Of a stretch of DNA of 64,000 nucleotides, positions 57,303 to 64,000 are shown piece after piece. The stretch lies in the NCBI RefSeq assembly GCF_014635665.1, contig NZ_BMDG01000001.1, positions 1-64,000 on the forward strand, written 5' to 3'. A program made the position numbers and the translations under genes. The first letter of the stretch is position 1; each line of letters starts with the position of its first letter. Origin of the DNA: Isoptericola cucumis. Lineage in GTDB: Bacteria; Actinomycetota; Actinomycetes; Actinomycetales; Cellulomonadaceae. The notes under the pieces were generated by a model, which worked only from the letters and a program-made list of their open reading frames with translations, had not been told where the DNA came from and made no database searches.

Positions 57303-58513
57303 GACGCCAGCCCGGTCGTCAGGCCGAGGTCGCGGGCGATGATCATGAGCTGCACCTCCGTGGTGCCCTCGCCGACCTCGAGGATCTTGGAGTCGCGGTA
57401 GTGCCGCGCCACCGGGTTGGCGTTGAGGAACCCGTACCCGCCGAAGATCTGGGAGGCGTCGCGCGCGTTCGCCATCGCCGCCTCCCCGCCGACGAGCTTG
57501 GCCACCGACGCCTCCGCCTTGAACGGCAGGCCGCGGGTCTGCTTGAGGGCCGCGTCCAGCCAGCACAGCCGCGCCGAGTGCACGCGCGCCTGCATCCGCG
57601 CCAGCATGAAGGCGATGTGCTGGTTCGACCCGATCGCGTGGCCGAAGACCTCCCGCTCCTTCGCGTACCGCAGCGCCTCCTCCAGGCAGCCCTGCGCCGC
57701 CCCCGTGGCGAGCGCGGCGAACGCGATGCGGCCCTCGTCCAGGGCGCGCAGGAAGTTGGCGTACCCCCGGCCGCGCTCGCCGAGCAGGTTCGACGCCGGC
57801 ACGCGCACGCCGTCGAGCGTCAGCGGGTGCGTGTCCGAGGTGTGCCACCCGACCTTGTCGTAGCTGGGCTCGACCGTGAACCCCGGCGTGCCCGACGGGA
57901 CGAGGAACGACGACAGCTCCTTGCGGGTGACGCCGCCTGCGTCCGTGCGCTCGCCCGTCACGGCGGTGACGGTCACGACGCTGGTGATGGGGGTGCCCGA
58001 GTTGGTGATGAACTGCTTGGACCCGTCGATCACCCACTCGCCCGCGCCGTCGGGGCCCGCGCCCGGCTCCAGCCGCGCCGTCGTGCGCGTCGCCCCGGCG
58101 TCCGACCCGGCGTCCGCCTCCGTCAGGCCGAAGGCCGCCAGCGCCCGCCCCGCCAGGAGGTCGGGCAGCCAGCGCCGCTTCTGCTCCTCGGTGCCGTGCC
58201 GGAAGATCGGCATGATGCCGAGGCCGACGCCGGCCTCGAGGGTCACCGCGATCGACTGGTCCACGCGGGCCAGCGCCTCCACCGCCAGGCACAGCGACAC
58301 GTAGTCCTTGCCCTGGCCGCCGACGTCGGTCGGGAACGGCAGGCCGAAGAGGCCCAGCTCGCCCATCTGGGCGATGATCTCCAGCGGCAGCCGCCGCTCG
58401 GTGTCGTACCGGTACGCGGCGGGCGCGACCACCTGGTCCGCGAACTCGCGCACCACGGCGCTGAGCTTGCGCTGCTCGTCGGTGAGCACGGTCGACTGGG
58501 TCTCGCTGATCAT
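57299..58513 (-). CDS. Acyl-CoA dehydrogenase (probable isovaleryl-CoA dehydrogenase)
   Basis: A 404-residue FAD enzyme introducing the alpha-beta double bond. Motifs: AFGLTEADAGSDAGATRTTA (FAD/substrate), QFITNSGTPITSVVTVTAV, DKVGWHTSDTHPLTLDGVRV, QIFGGYGFLNANPVARHYRD and ILEVGEGTTEVQLMIIAR. The Glu in GEGTTE occupies the usual catalytic base region near the C-terminus. In this operon the substrate is inferred to be isovaleryl-CoA or another branched acyl-CoA, upstream of methylcrotonyl-CoA carboxylase. ATG start overlapping the carboxylase alpha gene. Confidence 0.92.
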   Translation of the reverse strand: MISETQSTVLTDEQRKLSAVVREFADQVVAPAAYRYDTERRLPLEIIAQMGELGLFGLPFPTDVGGQGKDYVSLCLAVEALARVDQSIAVTLEAGVGLGIMPIFRHGTEEQKRRWLPDLLAGRALAAFGLTEADAGSDAGATRTTARLEPGAGPDGAGEWVIDGSKQFITNSGTPITSVVTVTAVTGERTDAGGVTRKELSSFLVPSGTPGFTVEPSYDKVGWHTSDTHPLTLDGVRVPASNLLGERGRGYANFLRALDEGRIAFAALATGAAQGCLEEALRYAKEREVFGHAIGSNQHIAFMLARMQARVHSARLCWLDAALKQTRGLPFKAEASVAKLVGGEAAMANARDASQIFGGYGFLNANPVARHYRDSKILEVGEGTTEVQLMIIARDLGLTTGLAS

Positions 58514-60774
58514 GACGCTCCTCGGGTGGCGGGGTCGGCCTGGGGATGCCCGTCCGTCGCGGCGGGGTCTGCCGCACCGGGCGTGGGGGTGCCGTCCGGC
58601 GGGGTCGCCGGCAGGTTCTGGGGGGTCTCGGCGGTGACGGCGGGCCGCTCCACGACGGCGGCCACCTGGTCGAGCCGCACCTGGTCGCCCGGCCGCACGC
58701 GGGGGCGGGCGATCCCGTCTGCGGGCGCCACCAGCGCGTGCTCCATCTTCATCGCCTCGACGACGACGAGCGTGCGGCCCGCGGCGACGTGCTCGCCGTC
58801 GGAGACCGGCACCGCCGTCACCGTGCCGGGCATGTCGACGCGGACCGTCACGCTCGCGGCGCCGCCGGCCGTAGGGGCGGCCTCGCGGGCCTCCCGCGAG
58901 CGCGCCGCCAGGGCCGTGCGGTCGAGCACGGTGAACCCGGCCGCCCGCCCCGCGACGTGCACCCACACCGCACCCGGGGCAGCGGACGCGCCCACCACCC
59001 CGGCGGTGGTGGCGCCGACGGTGAGGAGCCGGCGGCCCGGGCCGCCGGAAGCCGGACGCAGGGAGGCGCGGACCGGCTCGTCGCCACCCGCGGTGACGAC
59101 GGCGTCGTCGCGCGTCCCGGCCACGGTCACGGCGTGCTCCGCGCCGGCCGCGTCGACGAGCGTCACCGCGCGCGGCGCGCGGGGGGCGTTGAGCCGCCAC
59201 CCGTCGGGCGCCCACGGGCCGCGGACCTCGCCGGCGGCGTCGGTATCGGTGTCGGTGTCGGTGTCGGCATCGGTGTCGAGGGTCAGCAGCGCTGCGGCGA
59301 CGAGCGCCCACGAGCTGTCAGCACCACGGGCCACCGAACCGTCGCCTGGCTCTGACAGCTCGGCGAGGAAGCGGTCGACGAGGCCCGTGTCGAGACGGCC
59401 GGCGCGGACGTCGCCGTCGGCCAGCAGGTCGCGCAGGAACCCGGTGTTGGTCTCGACGCCCAGCACGACGAGGTCGGCGAGCAGGCCGTCGAGCCGGGCC
59501 AGCGCCTCCTCCCGGTCCGCGCCGTGCGCCACCGCCTTGGCGAGCATCGGGTCGTAGTCGCCCGTCACGACGCTCCCCGCGTCGATCCCGCTGTCCAGCC
59601 GCAGGGGCACCGCCCCCGGTCCGGCCGCGGCACCCGCGTCGTCGTAGACCAGGACGCGGCCCGCGGCCGGCAGGAACCCGCGCGCCGGCGACTCCGCGTA
59701 CACCCGCGCCTCGACCGCGTGCCCGGTGATCCGCACGTCGTCCTGCGCGAACGCGAGCGGCTCGCCCGCCGCGACCCGCAGCTGCTGGGCGACCAGGTCG
59801 ACGCCCGTCACGAGCTCGGTCACGGGGTGCTCCACCTGCAGGCGGGTGTTCATCTCGATGAACGCGAACGCCGCCGGGTCGTCGGCAGGCACGAGCATCT
59901 CCACGGTGCCGGCGCCCACGTACCCGACCGACCGGGCGACCTCGCAGGCCGCCTCGCCCATCCGCGCCCGGGTGGCCTCGTCCACGACCGGCGACGGCGC
60001 CTCCTCCACCACCTTCTGGTGGCGGCGCTGCAACGTGCACTCGCGCTCGCCCAGGTGCAGCACCGTGCCGTGGGTGTCCGCCAGCACCTGCACCTCGACG
60101 TGCCGGGGCCGGTCCACGAGGCGCTCCAGCAGCAGCCCGTCGTCGCCGAACGACGACGCCGCGACCCGCCGCGCGGAGGCCAGCGCGTCCGGCAGCTCGG
60201 CGGCGGAGCGCACCACGACCATCCCCTTGCCGCCGCCGCCCGCGACGGGCTTGACCAGCAGCGGGAAGCCGACGTCGGCGGCCGCGGCCACCAGGTCCGC
60301 GTCCGAGAGCCCGTCGTCGAGCGTGCCCGGCAGCACCGGCACGCCGCGTGTGGCGACGAGCCGCTTCGCGGCGACCTTGTCCGCCATCGTCGTCATCGCC
60401 TCGACGGACGGGCCGACGAACACGATCCCGGCCCGCTCGCAGGCCCGGGCCAGCGCGGGGTTCTCCGCGAGGAAGCCGTAGCCGGGGTGCACCGCCTCGG
60501 CCCCGGTGGCGACGGCGGCCGCGACGACCGCCTCGACGTCGAGGTAGCTCGCCGCCGCGGCCGCGGGACCGATCCGCACGGCGACGTCGGCCTCGCGCAC
60601 GTGCCGGGCCCCCGCGTCGGCGTCCGAGTACACCGCCACGGAGCGGATGCCGAGCCCGCGCAGCGTGCCGATGACGCGGCAGGCGATCTCGCCGCGGTTG
60701 GCGACGAGCACGGTGCCGAACGGCCGCGCGGAACCCGCGGACCGCGAGGTCGCGGACGGAGAGGTCACGCTCAT
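58510..60774 (-). CDS. accA: Acyl-CoA carboxylase alpha subunit (biotin carboxylase + BCCP; methylcrotonyl-CoA carboxylase type)
   Basis: A 754-residue subunit with biotin carboxylase, linker and biotin carrier domains. Motifs: LVANRGEIACRVIGTLRGLG, HPGYGFLAENP, ATP-grasp loop VKPVAGGGGKGMVVV, ERECTLQRRHQKVVEE, FIEMNTRLQVEHPVTE, and the biotin site VVEAMKMEHALVAP (K676). Between the two catalytic regions, residues 472-488 are a 17-residue insert encoded by a 50-bp palindrome, followed by a D/T repeat (DTDADTDTDTDTDA). ATG 60774 is preferred because GAGGG is 8 bp upstream; ATG 60780 is the alternative. Pairs with the beta subunit next to it. Confidence 0.93.
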   Translation of the reverse strand: MSVTSPSATSRSAGSARPFGTVLVANRGEIACRVIGTLRGLGIRSVAVYSDADAGARHVREADVAVRIGPAAAAASYLDVEAVVAAAVATGAEAVHPGYGFLAENPALARACERAGIVFVGPSVEAMTTMADKVAAKRLVATRGVPVLPGTLDDGLSDADLVAAAADVGFPLLVKPVAGGGGKGMVVVRSAAELPDALASARRVAASSFGDDGLLLERLVDRPRHVEVQVLADTHGTVLHLGERECTLQRRHQKVVEEAPSPVVDEATRARMGEAACEVARSVGYVGAGTVEMLVPADDPAAFAFIEMNTRLQVEHPVTELVTGVDLVAQQLRVAAGEPLAFAQDDVRITGHAVEARVYAESPARGFLPAAGRVLVYDDAGAAAGPGAVPLRLDSGIDAGSVVTGDYDPMLAKAVAHGADREEALARLDGLLADLVVLGVETNTGFLRDLLADGDVRAGRLDTGLVDRFLAELSEPGDGSVARGADSSWALVAAALLTLDTDADTDTDTDTDAAGEVRGPWAPDGWRLNAPRAPRAVTLVDAAGAEHAVTVAGTRDDAVVTAGGDEPVRASLRPASGGPGRRLLTVGATTAGVVGASAAPGAVWVHVAGRAAGFTVLDRTALAARSREAREAAPTAGGAASVTVRVDMPGTVTAVPVSDGEHVAAGRTLVVVEAMKMEHALVAPADGIARPRVRPGDQVRLDQVAAVVERPAVTAETPQNLPATPPDGTPTPGAADPAATDGHPQADPATRGAS
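59239..59280. repeat. Hexameric GTCGGT-type repeat in the biotin carboxylase linker
   Basis: Seven near-perfect hexamers GTCGGT / ATCGGT / GTCGGC run over 42 bp. On the coding (minus) strand they give an alternating Asp-Thr tract after residue 495 or so. The tract lies just beyond the palindromic element in the same linker, so this region tolerates insertions. Confidence 0.75.
59312..59361. repeat. 50-bp palindromic coding element, copy A
   Basis: Begins GAGCTGTCAG and ends CTGACAGCTC (perfect 10-bp outer arms), with CACCA / TGGCT continuing the inverted repeat imperfectly. On the minus strand it encodes ELSEPGDGSVARGADSS in the carboxylase linker. Two more copies of the same length, outer arms and reading frame occur at 63456-63505 and 63516-63565 in the E2 gene. 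Confidence 0.85.
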
Positions 60775-60785
60775 GGACATCGCCC

Positions 60786-62420
60786 TCACATCCGGAAGAG
60801 CCCGAAGCCGGGCGTCGTAGGTACCGCCGAGACGGCCGGGCCGCCCAGGGGCGTGCGCCCGCACACCGCGAGCGCCATGCCGAGCACCCGGCGGGTGTCG
60901 AGCGGGTCGACGATGCCGTCGTCCCAGAGCCGGGCGGTGGCGTGGTACGGGTCGCCGGCGGCCTCGTAGGAGTCCCGGATGGAGGCCCGGAACGCGGCCT
61001 CCTCCTCGCCGTCCCACTCCTCGCCGCGCCGTGCGAGCTGGTCGCGCTTGACCGTGGCCAGCACCGACGACGCCTGCGCCCCGCCCATCACGGAGATCCG
61101 CGAGCCCGGCCACGACCAGAGGAACCGCGGGCCGTACGCCCGCCCGCACATCGCGTAGTTGCCGGCCCCGAACGACCCGCCCACGATGACGGTCAGCTTG
61201 GGCACCCGCGTGGTCGCGACGGCGGTGACCATCTTGGCGCCGTCCTTCGCGATGCCGCCCGCCTCGGCGTCCGAGCCCACCATGAACCCGGAGATGTTCT
61301 GCAGGAACAGCAGGGGGATCCCGCGCTGGTCGGCCAGCTCGACGAAGTGCGCCCCCTTGAGGGCCGACTCGCGGAACAGCACGCCCGCGTTGGCCAGGAT
61401 GCCGACGGGGTGGCCGTGGATGCGCGCGAACCCGGTGACGAGCGTCGTGCCGTACTCGGCCTTGAACTCGTGCAGCTCGCTGCCGTCGACCAGGCGCGAG
61501 ATCACCTCACGCGGGTCGTACGGCTGCTGCACGTCCACCGGCACGGCGGCGTACAGGCCGGCGGGGTCGACGGCGGGCTCGCGCGCCGGCGCGACGTCCC
61601 ACGCGGGCTCCGGGTCGGGCGGCAGCGTGGCGACGATGTCGCGCACGATGTCGAGCGCGTGCTCGTCGTCGTCGGCCAGGTGGTCGACGACGCCCGAGCG
61701 GCGGGCGTGCAGCTCGCCCCCGCCCAGCTCCTCGGCCGTGACCTCCTCGCCGATGGCGGCCTTCACCAGCGGCGGGCCGCCGAGGAAGATCGTGCCCTGG
61801 CCGGCCACGATGACGGTCTCGTCGCTCATCGCCGGCACGTACGCCCCGCCGGCGGTGCACGACCCCAGCACCGCGGAGATCTGCGGGATGCGCTCCGCCG
61901 ACAGCCGCGCCTGGTGGTAGAAGATCCGCCCGAAGTGGTCGCGGTCGGGGAACACCTCGTCCTGGCGCGGCAGGAACGCGCCACCCGAGTCCACGAGGTA
62001 GACGCACGGCAGCCGGTTCTCCAGCGCGATCTCCTGCGCCCGCAGGTGCTTCTTCACGGTGAGCGGGTGGTAGGTGCCGCCCTTGACCGTGGGGTCGTTG
62101 CACACGACCATCACCTGCCGGCCGCGCACCACCCCGACGCCGGCGATCACCCCGGCGCCGGGCCACGCCCCGTCGTCCAGCCCGTGCGCCGCCAGCGGCG
62201 CGACCTCGAGGAACGGGCTGCCGGCGTCCAGCAGCCGCGCGACGCGGTCGCGGGGCAGCAGCTTGCCGCGCGACGTGTGCTGGTCGCGGGCCCGCTGCGT
62301 GCCGCCGGCGGCGGCCGTGGCGGTGCGCTCACGGAGCCGGTCCGCCAGCCCGCGCTGGGCCGCGTCGTTGGCGCGGGCGGCGTCCGCCCGTAGGTCGACG
62401 GCGCTGGTCAGGACGCTCAC
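60786..62420 (-). CDS. accD: Acyl-CoA carboxylase beta subunit (methylcrotonyl-CoA carboxylase carboxyltransferase)
   Basis: A 544-residue carboxyltransferase. It has two crotonase-like halves: N-terminal with [40 protein letters not shown] and [19 protein letters not shown]-terminal with [40 protein letters not shown] and [20 protein letters not shown]. The [10 protein letters not shown] and FMVG-x-x-x-E patterns match methylcrotonyl-CoA rather than propionyl-CoA carboxylases, agreeing with the leucine operon. GTG start 62420 behind GGAGGGGG, overlapping the E2 stop (GTGA). Transfers CO2 from biotin to 3-methylcrotonyl-CoA. Confidence 0.93.
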
Positions 62421-63808
62421 GCGGCACCCCCTCCGTCGCCGGTCGGGCCGGCCGGGCCCGCGGCCAGCAGCGCGAGGCCCGGGTCGGCGAGCAGCGCACC
62501 CAGGTCCGCGAGGAACCGCGCCCCCTGCTCGCCGTCGACCACCCGGTGGTCGAACGTGAGGCTGAGCGTCATGACCTGGCGCAGCGCCACCTGGCCGTCG
62601 TGCTCCCACGGCCGCCGCGCCACCTGCCCGACGCCGAGGATCGCCGACTCCCCCGGGTTGAGGATCGGCGTGCCGGCGTCCACGCCGAAGACGCCCACGT
62701 TGGTGATCGTCATCGTGCCGCCGGTGAGCCGCTCGGGCGTGGTGCGCCCCGCGCGGGCGGTCTCGGTCAGCTCGGTCAGCGCCCCCGCGAGGTCGACCAG
62801 GGAGAGCGTGTCCGCAGCCGGCACGTGCGGCACGACCAGCCCCCGGTCTGTGGCGACGGCGATGCCGAGGTTCACGTGGGCCGGCCGCACGATCTCCGCG
62901 CCGCCGTCCGGCAGGGCCACCCACCGGTCGGTGAGCGTCGGGTGCGCGGGCAGCAGCCCGAGCACCGCGCGGGCGACCAGCGCGAGCACCGTGATCCGCG
63001 TCCCGCGGGTGTCCCGGCGGGTGCGCAGCCGGGCGAGCAGCTCCGTGCTCGCCGTGACGTCGACCGTGAGGAAGACCGTGGCCTGCGGGACCGCCACGCT
63101 CGCGACCATCGCCGCCGCCGTGTGCTTGCGCACGCCGCGCACCGGGGTGCGCGTCTCGCCGGCCGGCCGGGCGCGCCCGTTCAGCCCGCCCGTAGTGCCG
63201 TGCCGAGCCTGCTCGACGTCCTCGCGGGTGATGCGCCCGTGCGGCCCGGTGCCGGGGACGGCGGCGAGGTCGAGGCCGTGCTCGCGGGCGAGCGCCCGCA
63301 CGACCGGCGTCGACCGGGGACGGTCGCCCGCCTGCGTCGTCGTCGCGACCCCGACCGCGCCGACCTCCGCGTACCGGCGCGGACGACGACGGGGCCGCCC
63401 GGCCCGCTCCGGCCGCGCGCCGTAGCCCACGAGGTTGGGCTCGGGCGACTCCTGCGAGCTGTCAGAACCAGGTGACGCCATACCCACGTGTGGCTCTGAC
63501 AACTCCGGCGCCGCAGAGTTGTCAGAACCAGGTGCGGCCATACCCTCGTGTGGCTCTGACAACTCGCCGGAGAGGTCGAAGGTAATGAGCGGCTCGCCGA
63601 CCTGCACGACCTCGCCGGGCTCGGCGTGCAGCGACCGCACCACGCCCGCCACGGGAGACGGCAGCTCCACCAGCGCCTTGGCGGTCTCGACCTCGGCGAT
63701 CACCTGGTTGAGCTCGACGGTGTCGCCGACGCCGACGCGCCACTCGACGACCTCGGACTCCGTCAGCCCCTCGCCCAGGTCCGGGAGGCGGAACTCGCGC
63801 GTCGTCAT
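62417..63808 (-). CDS. bkdC: Branched-chain 2-oxoacid dehydrogenase E2 (dihydrolipoamide acyltransferase)
   Basis: A 463-residue E2. The lipoyl domain (about 1-78) has the attachment Lys in [11 protein letters not shown] (K44). Then an Ala/Pro-poor linker holds two 17-residue inserts, residues 82-98 and 102-118, each starting ELSEPH and coming from 50-bp palindromes. The E1/E3-binding domain lies near 165-200 ([33 protein letters not shown]). The catalytic domain (about 225-463) ends with [20 protein letters not shown] (HxxxDG). It transfers acyl groups to CoA. ATG 63808 follows GGAGGTGAGG. Overlaps the E1 beta stop and the carboxylase start. Confidence 0.92.
63456..63505. repeat. 50-bp palindromic coding element, copy B1
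   Basis: Begins GAGCTGTCAGAACCA and ends TGGCTCTGACAACTC. Reverse-strand reading [17 protein letters not shown] (residues 102-118 of E2). It starts exactly 60 bp before copy B2 and differs from it at a few positions, so the pair looks like a tandem insertion or duplication separated by 10 bp. Confidence 0.85.
63516..63565. repeat. 50-bp palindromic coding element, copy B2
   Basis: Begins GAGTTGTCAGAACCA and ends TGGCTCTGACAACTC; outer 10 bp perfectly inverted (GAGTTGTCAG / CTGACAACTC). Encodes [17 protein letters not shown] (residues 82-98 of E2). Here the outer arms are the most symmetric of the three copies. Confidence 0.85.
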
Positions 63809-64000
63809 GCCCTCACCTCCGTCCGGGCAGCGCCGGCAGGCCCGGCGGCCGCGAGCGGCACCCGCCCCAGCACGCGGTCCACGCCGTCGAGGATCCGGTC
63901 GAGGTCGGGCACCTGGTGCGTCTCCAGCCGTGCCGGCGGGTAGGGCACGTCGTGGCCGGTCACGCGGACGGGCGGGGCCTCGAGGAAGTCGAAGCACCGT
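63805..64000 (-). CDS. bkdB: 2-oxoacid dehydrogenase E1 beta subunit, C-terminal fragment (cut by window edge)
   Basis: Only the last ~64 codons are inside the window; the gene continues past 64000. The fragment reads CFDFLEAPPVRVTGHDVPYP then PARLETHQVPDLDRILDGVD, the typical E1 beta C-terminal end (FD-x-L-x-A-P-x-x-R-V-T-G-x-D-x-P-x-P) of branched-chain oxoacid dehydrogenases. The stop overlaps the E2 ATG by 4 bp. It should be the second gene of the bkd operon, with E1 alpha just outside the window. Confidence 0.88.
   Translation of the reverse strand, partial: RCFDFLEAPPVRVTGHDVPYPPARLETHQVPDLDRILDGVDRVLGRVPLAAAGPAGAARTEVRA

Follow-up and report, generated by a model that had tools for sequence, protein, structure and literature searches.

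Two genes encoding metabolic enzymes, and the palindromic DNA within them

The first 64,000 nucleotides of contig NZ_BMDG01000001.1 from the actinomycete Isoptericola cucumis (RefSeq assembly GCF_014635665.1), referred to here as the window, include genes for an acyl-CoA carboxylase subunit and for the E2 dihydrolipoamide acyltransferase, each of which harbors palindromic elements of exactly 50 base pairs that are translated in frame with the surrounding protein (Table 1). The single copy in the carboxylase is preceded by 473 residues and comes directly after the Biotin_carb_C match (residues 357-469), and the two copies in E2, preceded by 81 and 101 residues, fall between the lipoyl (5-76) and E3-binding (165-199) matches. 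When read from its first base (phase 0), each copy gives 17 residues, the last of them a serine (TCN) whose codon ends with the base that follows the copy. An initial annotation of the window had described three such palindromes, the last two with a period of 60 bp, and had placed one in a carboxylase linker and two in the E2 linker, all in the same frame; gene limits and Pfam domains bore out that description, while its remark on a shared orientation of all three copies is uninformative, because the element is palindromic.

These palindromes are not a product of chance, because the pattern GAGYTGTCAG-N15..45-CTGACARCTC was matched five times in the 4.46-Mb genome versus none for a reversed control, and because a covariance model recovered all three copies with the E-values given in Table 1 (those of the best strand, from a model itself built from copies including these three). 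The window contains six exact half-sites, all of which belong to the three copies, and a looser half-site pattern (two mismatches) was not enriched there over shuffled sequence.

Table 1. Locations of the palindromes, their host genes and the related features described in the text.
Feature	Location	Strand	Basis or remark
Palindrome, 50 bp, in frame in biotin-carboxylase subunit gene, peptide ELSEPGDGSVARGADSS	59312..59361	-	Pattern and covariance model, E 8.9e-13
Palindrome, 50 bp, in frame in E2 linker, second member of doublet in reading direction	63456..63505	-	Covariance model, E 1.8e-16
Linker, 10 bp, separating both E2 copies; 60-bp spacing preserves frame for both	63506..63515	.	Sequence
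Palindrome, 50 bp, in frame in E2 linker, first member of doublet in reading direction	63516..63565	-	Covariance model, E 5.2e-18
Host gene, acyl-CoA carboxylase biotin-carboxylase/biotinyl subunit	58510..60780	-	Pfam biotin-carboxylase N and C, ATP-grasp and biotinyl domains
Host gene, E2 dihydrolipoamide acyltransferase	62417..63808	-	Pfam lipoyl, E3-binding and 2-oxoacid acyltransferase domains
Bordered AbiEi-like gene, genome G017	L065:3139-4140		Full-length by alignment
Bordered AbiEi-like gene, genome G086	L325:12950-13813		Another genus, other neighbours; full-length by alignment
Bordered AbiEi-like gene, genome G003	L086:2552-3130		Shortened; match starts at residue 102
Bordered AbiEi-like gene, genome G007	L169:2790-3413		Damaged; protein without C-terminal core
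Second-class palindrome, genome G017	L302:17519-17568		
Second-class palindrome, genome G017	L305:6489-6538		
Second-class palindrome, genome G017	L312:5140-5189		
Second-class palindrome, genome G017	L313:3522-3571		

A dispersed family of coding palindromes

Analyses of additional genomes confirmed that Isoptericola cucumis and its relatives carry a dispersed family of such coding palindromes. The initial annotation had allowed that the genome might hold no further copies, in which case a mobile element would be improbable; a covariance model (R1, made from both strands of 15 copies) identified seven, compared with five by the strict pattern, corresponding to the three in the window, one each in an XdhC-family gene and an AMP-binding (MenE-like) gene, and two between genes, one of which is degenerate. 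Within the genus the model matched 10 of 18 genomes at E<=0.01 and left eight without a match, and within the family, under stricter filters (E<=1e-4), it matched 45 of 150 genomes, distributed over 12 of 25 genera. Copy number spans 1 to at least 57 per matching genome, the highest value being that of genome G017, in which 114 matches represent about 57 places, both strands being matched; all counts from the genus scan are lower bounds, with 150 candidates scored per genome. A scan of named genomes with the strict pattern returned 14 stretches, from Luteimicrobium album (three), Krasilnikoviella flava (three) and one actinobacterial metagenome-assembled genome (four), as well as from Microlunatus speluncae, Oerskovia turbata and metagenome-assembled genomes of Propionicimonas and Frankiaceae, and the same strict element was found zero times in the viral contigs of IMG/VR.

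The length of the element is nearly constant, at exactly 50 bp in 165 of the 175 matches listed; exclusion of the other 10, and of nine duplicates, left the 156 distinct copies on which most of the following comparisons are based. Five copies with a TGGTGGG core were left out of the pairing, consensus, spectrum and flank tests. A second class of palindromes, which shares the TGTCAG/CTGACA arms and their spacing but is built around a CTGGTGGG-like core, was also observed in G017 (Table 1).

Reading phase and insertion context

A further property of the family is the reading phase of those copies that lie within genes, which were called by a home-made codon-usage finder and not taken from annotation. 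In a first set of 99 copies, 37 were wholly intragenic, 55 intergenic and seven overlapped a gene end; the corresponding numbers for a second set of 76 were 24, 46 and six, and for the 156 distinct copies 57, 87 and 12. Every wholly intragenic copy used phase 0 (37/37 and 24/24 in the two sets, 57/57 of the distinct copies). A stop codon closes phase 2 in nearly every copy (coding, 55 of 57; intergenic, 86 of 87) but phase 1 in only seven of 57 and 16 of 87, so that a second phase is usually open. The 57 intragenic copies fall, by our own grouping, into about 24 different genes (part of which were submitted to Pfam), and if each gene is counted once, the chance of using one phase out of two open ones is of the order of 2^-24. 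This uniformity supports the earlier proposal that the actinomycete carries a family of coding palindromes comparable to the Rickettsia palindromic elements (RPEs).

The spacing of doublets displays the same regard for frame: it is a multiple of three in all seven coding doublets (60, 63 or 72 bp), and in four of the 19 others, among which 61 bp is commonest (12 of 19). Some copies counted as start-overlapping are likewise in frame: inspection by eye indicated that a NirB-like gene (L190) reads through one of them from an upstream ATG.

Over the 12-18 bp adjoining a copy, both within and between genes, the left flank is pyrimidine-rich and the right flank purine-rich, a bias that may correspond to a target preference or to a longer unit. 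The idea that copies had entered the centre of pre-existing inverted repeats was rejected on the basis of flank pairing, which gave z-scores of 0.1, -1.4 and 0.3 for coding copies and of 0.8 and 0.7 for intergenic ones, the latter also reaching z 2.0 by local alignment, a value attained by four of 200 shuffles. Copies with another copy no more than 90 bp away were excluded from these flank tests, and those overlapping a gene end from the tests that compare coding with intergenic copies.

Shared linkers, gain and loss

Copies are present at corresponding linkers of two or more species in AccA, HrpA and MenE (by alignment) and in a molybdopterin oxidoreductase (by comparison of loops), and also in a CopA-like ATPase, a LUD protein and E2, where correspondence was judged by flanking residues alone. 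The initial annotation had named conservation of the 17 residues among distant genera as a mark of ancestral sequence. Copies in the same linker of different genomes were no more alike (inner identity 0.442; 51 pairs) than unrelated copies (0.480; 1322 pairs), copies from within one genome were closer (0.668; 219 pairs), and for 25 of 26 copies tested the closer relatives lay in the copy's own genome. The lack of likeness among same-linker copies indicates that the 17 residues do not belong to an anciently conserved portion of the proteins. Either permissive linkers have been struck repeatedly, or copies have been homogenised within genomes. The exception is the close pair G073 and G086, with an identity of 0.97 at one site and three shared copies showing 0, 1 and 3 differences in 50 bases; one region identity (0.498) was dropped as a strand mis-pairing, the element there being identical (0/50).

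Gain and loss were compared between G007 and G012, whose DNA is 85-91% identical and the second of which lacked any match when the genus was scanned, and between the trio G086, G073 and G058 and their relative G039. A copy in the oxidoreductase loop is present in all three members of that trio and absent from G039, the net difference in length being 45 bp; the corresponding values were 102 bp at an accA site with two copies and approximately 15 bp in the CopA-like gene, and at another accA site the lengths with and without a copy were about equal. When HrpA and MenE were used to build a midpoint-rooted tree, nine of the 10 matching genomes formed one clade, joined by the matchless G015, and G007 was placed among genomes without matches; repeated loss of copies is plausible. 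The view of the initial annotation that the palindromes are spreading into flexible linkers is supported in that many copies sit in variable linkers or loops, which many orthologues possess without an insert, but with two qualifications: the spreading is something we infer, because close relatives display shortened, replaced or decayed-looking sites and no clean insertion, and more than half of the copies examined (87 of 156) lie between genes.

An AbiEi-like gene bordered by palindromes

The densest clusters of palindromes led to a gene that is bordered by the element in four genomes (Table 1), and that was seen once per genome in the DNA examined. In all four cases an element overlaps the stop codon of the gene or is at most 7 bp away, and in three of the four elements are found on the other side as well, the gene in G086 standing between two doublets. 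Its recurrence in a second genus is a stronger point than the density of copies around it. Residues 43-210 of the G017 protein corresponded to AbiEi among the PADLOC profiles (E 1.5e-18), and its C-terminal part carries the motifs D-x-EW ... VEIDG..H, which we take to be those of DUF559/Vsr-like, PD-(D/E)XK-like nucleases, an assignment confirmed by no library: no nuclease domain was named by Pfam, NCBIfam or PHROGs. The PDB yielded no match for one bordered protein (P0002), and the only two matches to the profile (E 1.5) were taken as noise.

A profile of three bordered proteins detected no further homologue in 2.89 Mb of examined DNA (overlaps counted; not genome-wide). Relatives were confirmed in none of the viral contigs and in none of the plasmids searched, and phages gave a single 32.5% match, in an unannotated record. 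Genome G007, in which the gene is damaged, has eight palindromes, one of which scores above 40 bits, and G016 has no bordered gene at the corresponding locus and one relic element there; these states are known for five genomes, too few for a correlation with copy number. AbiEi proteins are described, in the excerpted text of PMC7725324, as helix-turn-helix regulators, one of which autoregulates its own operon. The bordered gene is a candidate for encoding a protein that would read the paired TGTCAG arms.

Comparison with known repeat systems

RPEs are dispersed palindromes that occur between genes and also, as in-frame fusions, within conserved protein genes, and coding palindromes have also been cited, in titles listed among the references of the same papers, for Wolbachia and Methanocaldococcus jannaschii (PMC2229807, PMC3733652; excerpts). 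The actinomycete palindromes are likewise both intergenic (87 of 156) and in frame within genes (57 of 156), and share with RPEs a single tolerated reading frame, used by all intragenic copies. They differ in size, RPEs being 105-146 bp in the excerpted account (PMC2229807), in having Actinomycetota as hosts, in their frequent doublets 60-63 bp apart and in their near-invariant TGTCAG arms. The comparison is one of described features and not of aligned sequences. To our knowledge, neither the mover nor the function of RPEs has been established.

A second parallel is offered by repetitive extragenic palindromes (REPs), their bacterial interspersed mosaic elements (BIMEs) and the REPtrons that include a TnpA-REP (RAYT) gene, as characterized in PMC8266576: these also are short multicopy palindromes, often in doublets, and the gene that directly adjoins the repeats in REPtrons may have a counterpart in the bordered gene. 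However, the actinomycete elements showed neither a GTAG nor a CGTC tag at their edges (the listed flanks and their base composition being C-rich on the left and G-rich on the right), one third of the copies examined are intragenic, and the bordered gene resembles AbiEi and not a Y1 transposase. A RAYT/Y1 transposase was sought and rejected: the Y1 (HuH) profile PF01797 matched none of the 18 genus genomes at E<=1e-4, with a control matched in five of 14. It is conceivable, if doubtful, that the family represents a REPtron-like system without HuH, in which an AbiEi-domain protein with a nuclease-like C-terminus, its gene flanked by palindromes or doublets of them, would recognise the paired arms and spread palindromes chromosome-wide, including in frame into proteins, and in which loss of the gene would be followed by loss of the palindromes.

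Miniature inverted-repeat transposable elements are similarly small and multicopy, with terminal inverted repeats; here, however, the palindrome is the whole element, no target duplication was shown at the compared sites, and no parent insertion sequence turned up, no genome-wide search for paired half-sites having been made. Noc and SlmA sites are dispersed binding sites of chromosome-organising proteins. They too are palindromic and scattered, as the actinomycete elements are, and the latter are missing near the presumed terminus in G017; the actinomycete element differs in being longer and in having a copy number that varies down to none in sister species.

Interpretation and alternative explanations

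The palindromes form a dispersed family in Actinomycetota that probably works like the Rickettsia elements, an explanation limited in strength because mobility rests on inference. Copies would arise by transposition or by copying from a palindromic source, and a trans-acting protein, for which the product of the bordered gene is the candidate, would read the paired TGTCAG arms. A copy landing in a gene would be kept only in the phase that gives a hydrophilic, Pro/Gly/Ser-rich loop of 17 residues in a tolerant linker; other copies would settle between genes, preferentially close behind stop codons.

Several observations weigh against this explanation. The sites compared between close relatives showed neither a target-site duplication nor a clean gain of 50 bp; some copy-less sites resemble decayed copies, and loss may explain part of the pattern of presence and absence. 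Near-invariant arms, together with inner changes dominated by exchanges between C and G, do not look like the neutral decay of dead copies. The bordered gene was noticed through a copy-dense locus, so that its association with the palindromes is not an independent test. Finally, the explanation does not predict the complete absence of copies from 780 kb of G017 (C1:1195001-1975000, L257-L295), near the presumed terminus.

The arms and this gap also serve as evidence for a rival explanation, under which selection would maintain the palindromes as binding sites of a host protein, whether chromosome-organising or otherwise sequence-specific, a pair of inverted TGTCAG half-sites a constant distance apart being tolerated within genes in one harmless frame. 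In 144 of the 156 copies both arms contain an exact TGTCAG. Among 43 copies in G017, none of 516 arm bases was changed, versus 262 of the 1290 inner bases and 51 of the 344 outer ones, and in G003 eight of 216 arm bases were changed; this conservation was partly selected for, the model copies having been picked by patterns containing TGTCAG. In DNA windows that were scanned directly, 27 of 29 matches were inspected and all 27 displayed both arms (two after a one-base slip). The inner differences are mostly between C and G (154 of 262 in G017 and 64 of 122 in G003), a spectrum that ordinary decay would not give.

The gap lies near the terminus only if the origin of G017 is near base 1, which is presumed from DnaA boxes at 67 and 87, a DnaA-like motif within the initial 2 kb and a GC-skew peak, itself weak, near 1.5 Mb. 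A 420-kb control from the same genome contained 19 copies, 400 kb of it having been picked around known copies, and the 20 kb at the origin contained none. When 42 copy-bearing loci of other genus genomes were compared with G017, 23 matched outside the gap (>400 bits) and one inside, two gave weak matches (one on either side of that division) and 16 gave none, the DNA outside the gap consisting of regions chosen for their copies and the gap itself having been chosen post hoc. In G086, 10 copies were found in two of 20 evenly spaced 20-kb windows. The evidence for placement away from the terminus is suggestive, and post hoc. Selected binding sites are favoured by a copy-free stretch in a genome with at least 57 copies, and by the occupation of corresponding linkers in several species; against them stand sister species of the genus with no match, the wide range of copy number and inner sequence that is not conserved among copies at the same site, and the partial selection of the arms and the composition of the control reduce what the arms and gap can contribute. 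Overall, this explanation appears unlikely.

It is less likely still that the palindromes are RNA hairpins, acting as transcription terminators or as stabilisers of mRNA 3' ends, that sometimes end up in genes. Their position invites the idea: intergenic copies lie within 30 bp of a 3' gene end in 60 of 91 distances (median 18 bp, second doublet members counted too), compared with 20 of 83 distances to 5' ends (median 84 bp), and G012 carries another palindrome at one intergenic position that in G007 is occupied by the 50-bp element. However, 57 of the 156 copies are wholly intragenic, and divergent gene pairs, as called by the home-made finder, flank 16 of the 87 intergenic ones. Covariation of the two arms of each copy was little or none: own arms paired hardly better than arms swapped within the genome, at 0.780 versus 0.748 for coding copies and 0.787 versus 0.785 for intergenic copies (the per-genome consensus, palindromic by construction, was not used as evidence). 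No Rfam match above the gathering score was obtained for positions 59000-64000 of the window, and a tRNA scan found nothing. At several loci (L028, L059, L081, L086, L208, L214 and L215) the first two bases of a copy overlap the stop codon of the neighbouring predicted gene.

No additional constraint at the level of the peptide was detected in coding copies, in which synonymous and nonsynonymous differences from the genome consensus number 63 and 167, versus 151 and 441 in intergenic copies read on both strands (p=0.62); the two groups are also alike in codon positions. A conserved or convergent function of the 17 residues as a peptide of the host enzymes is very unlikely, the occupation of corresponding linkers in several species being outweighed by the presence of the same DNA between genes, the lack of a synonymous excess within them, the dissimilarity of same-site copies and the many orthologues without an insert.

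A search of open-licence full texts recovered no paper recognisable as describing such elements in Actinomycetota. What is new in a family working like the Rickettsia elements is its phylum, its size, its near-invariant arms, its frame-preserving doublets and the bordered AbiEi-like gene, which provides a concrete candidate protein. The occurrence in high-GC actinomycetes of at least 57 copies in one genome and of none detected in sister species leaves insertion, the tolerance of enzymes and the mover open to direct study.

Additional feature of the window

Near the carboxylase copy, at positions 59240-59275, lies a short tandem repeat of GTGTCG-like hexamers, which is read as Asp-Thr repeats.

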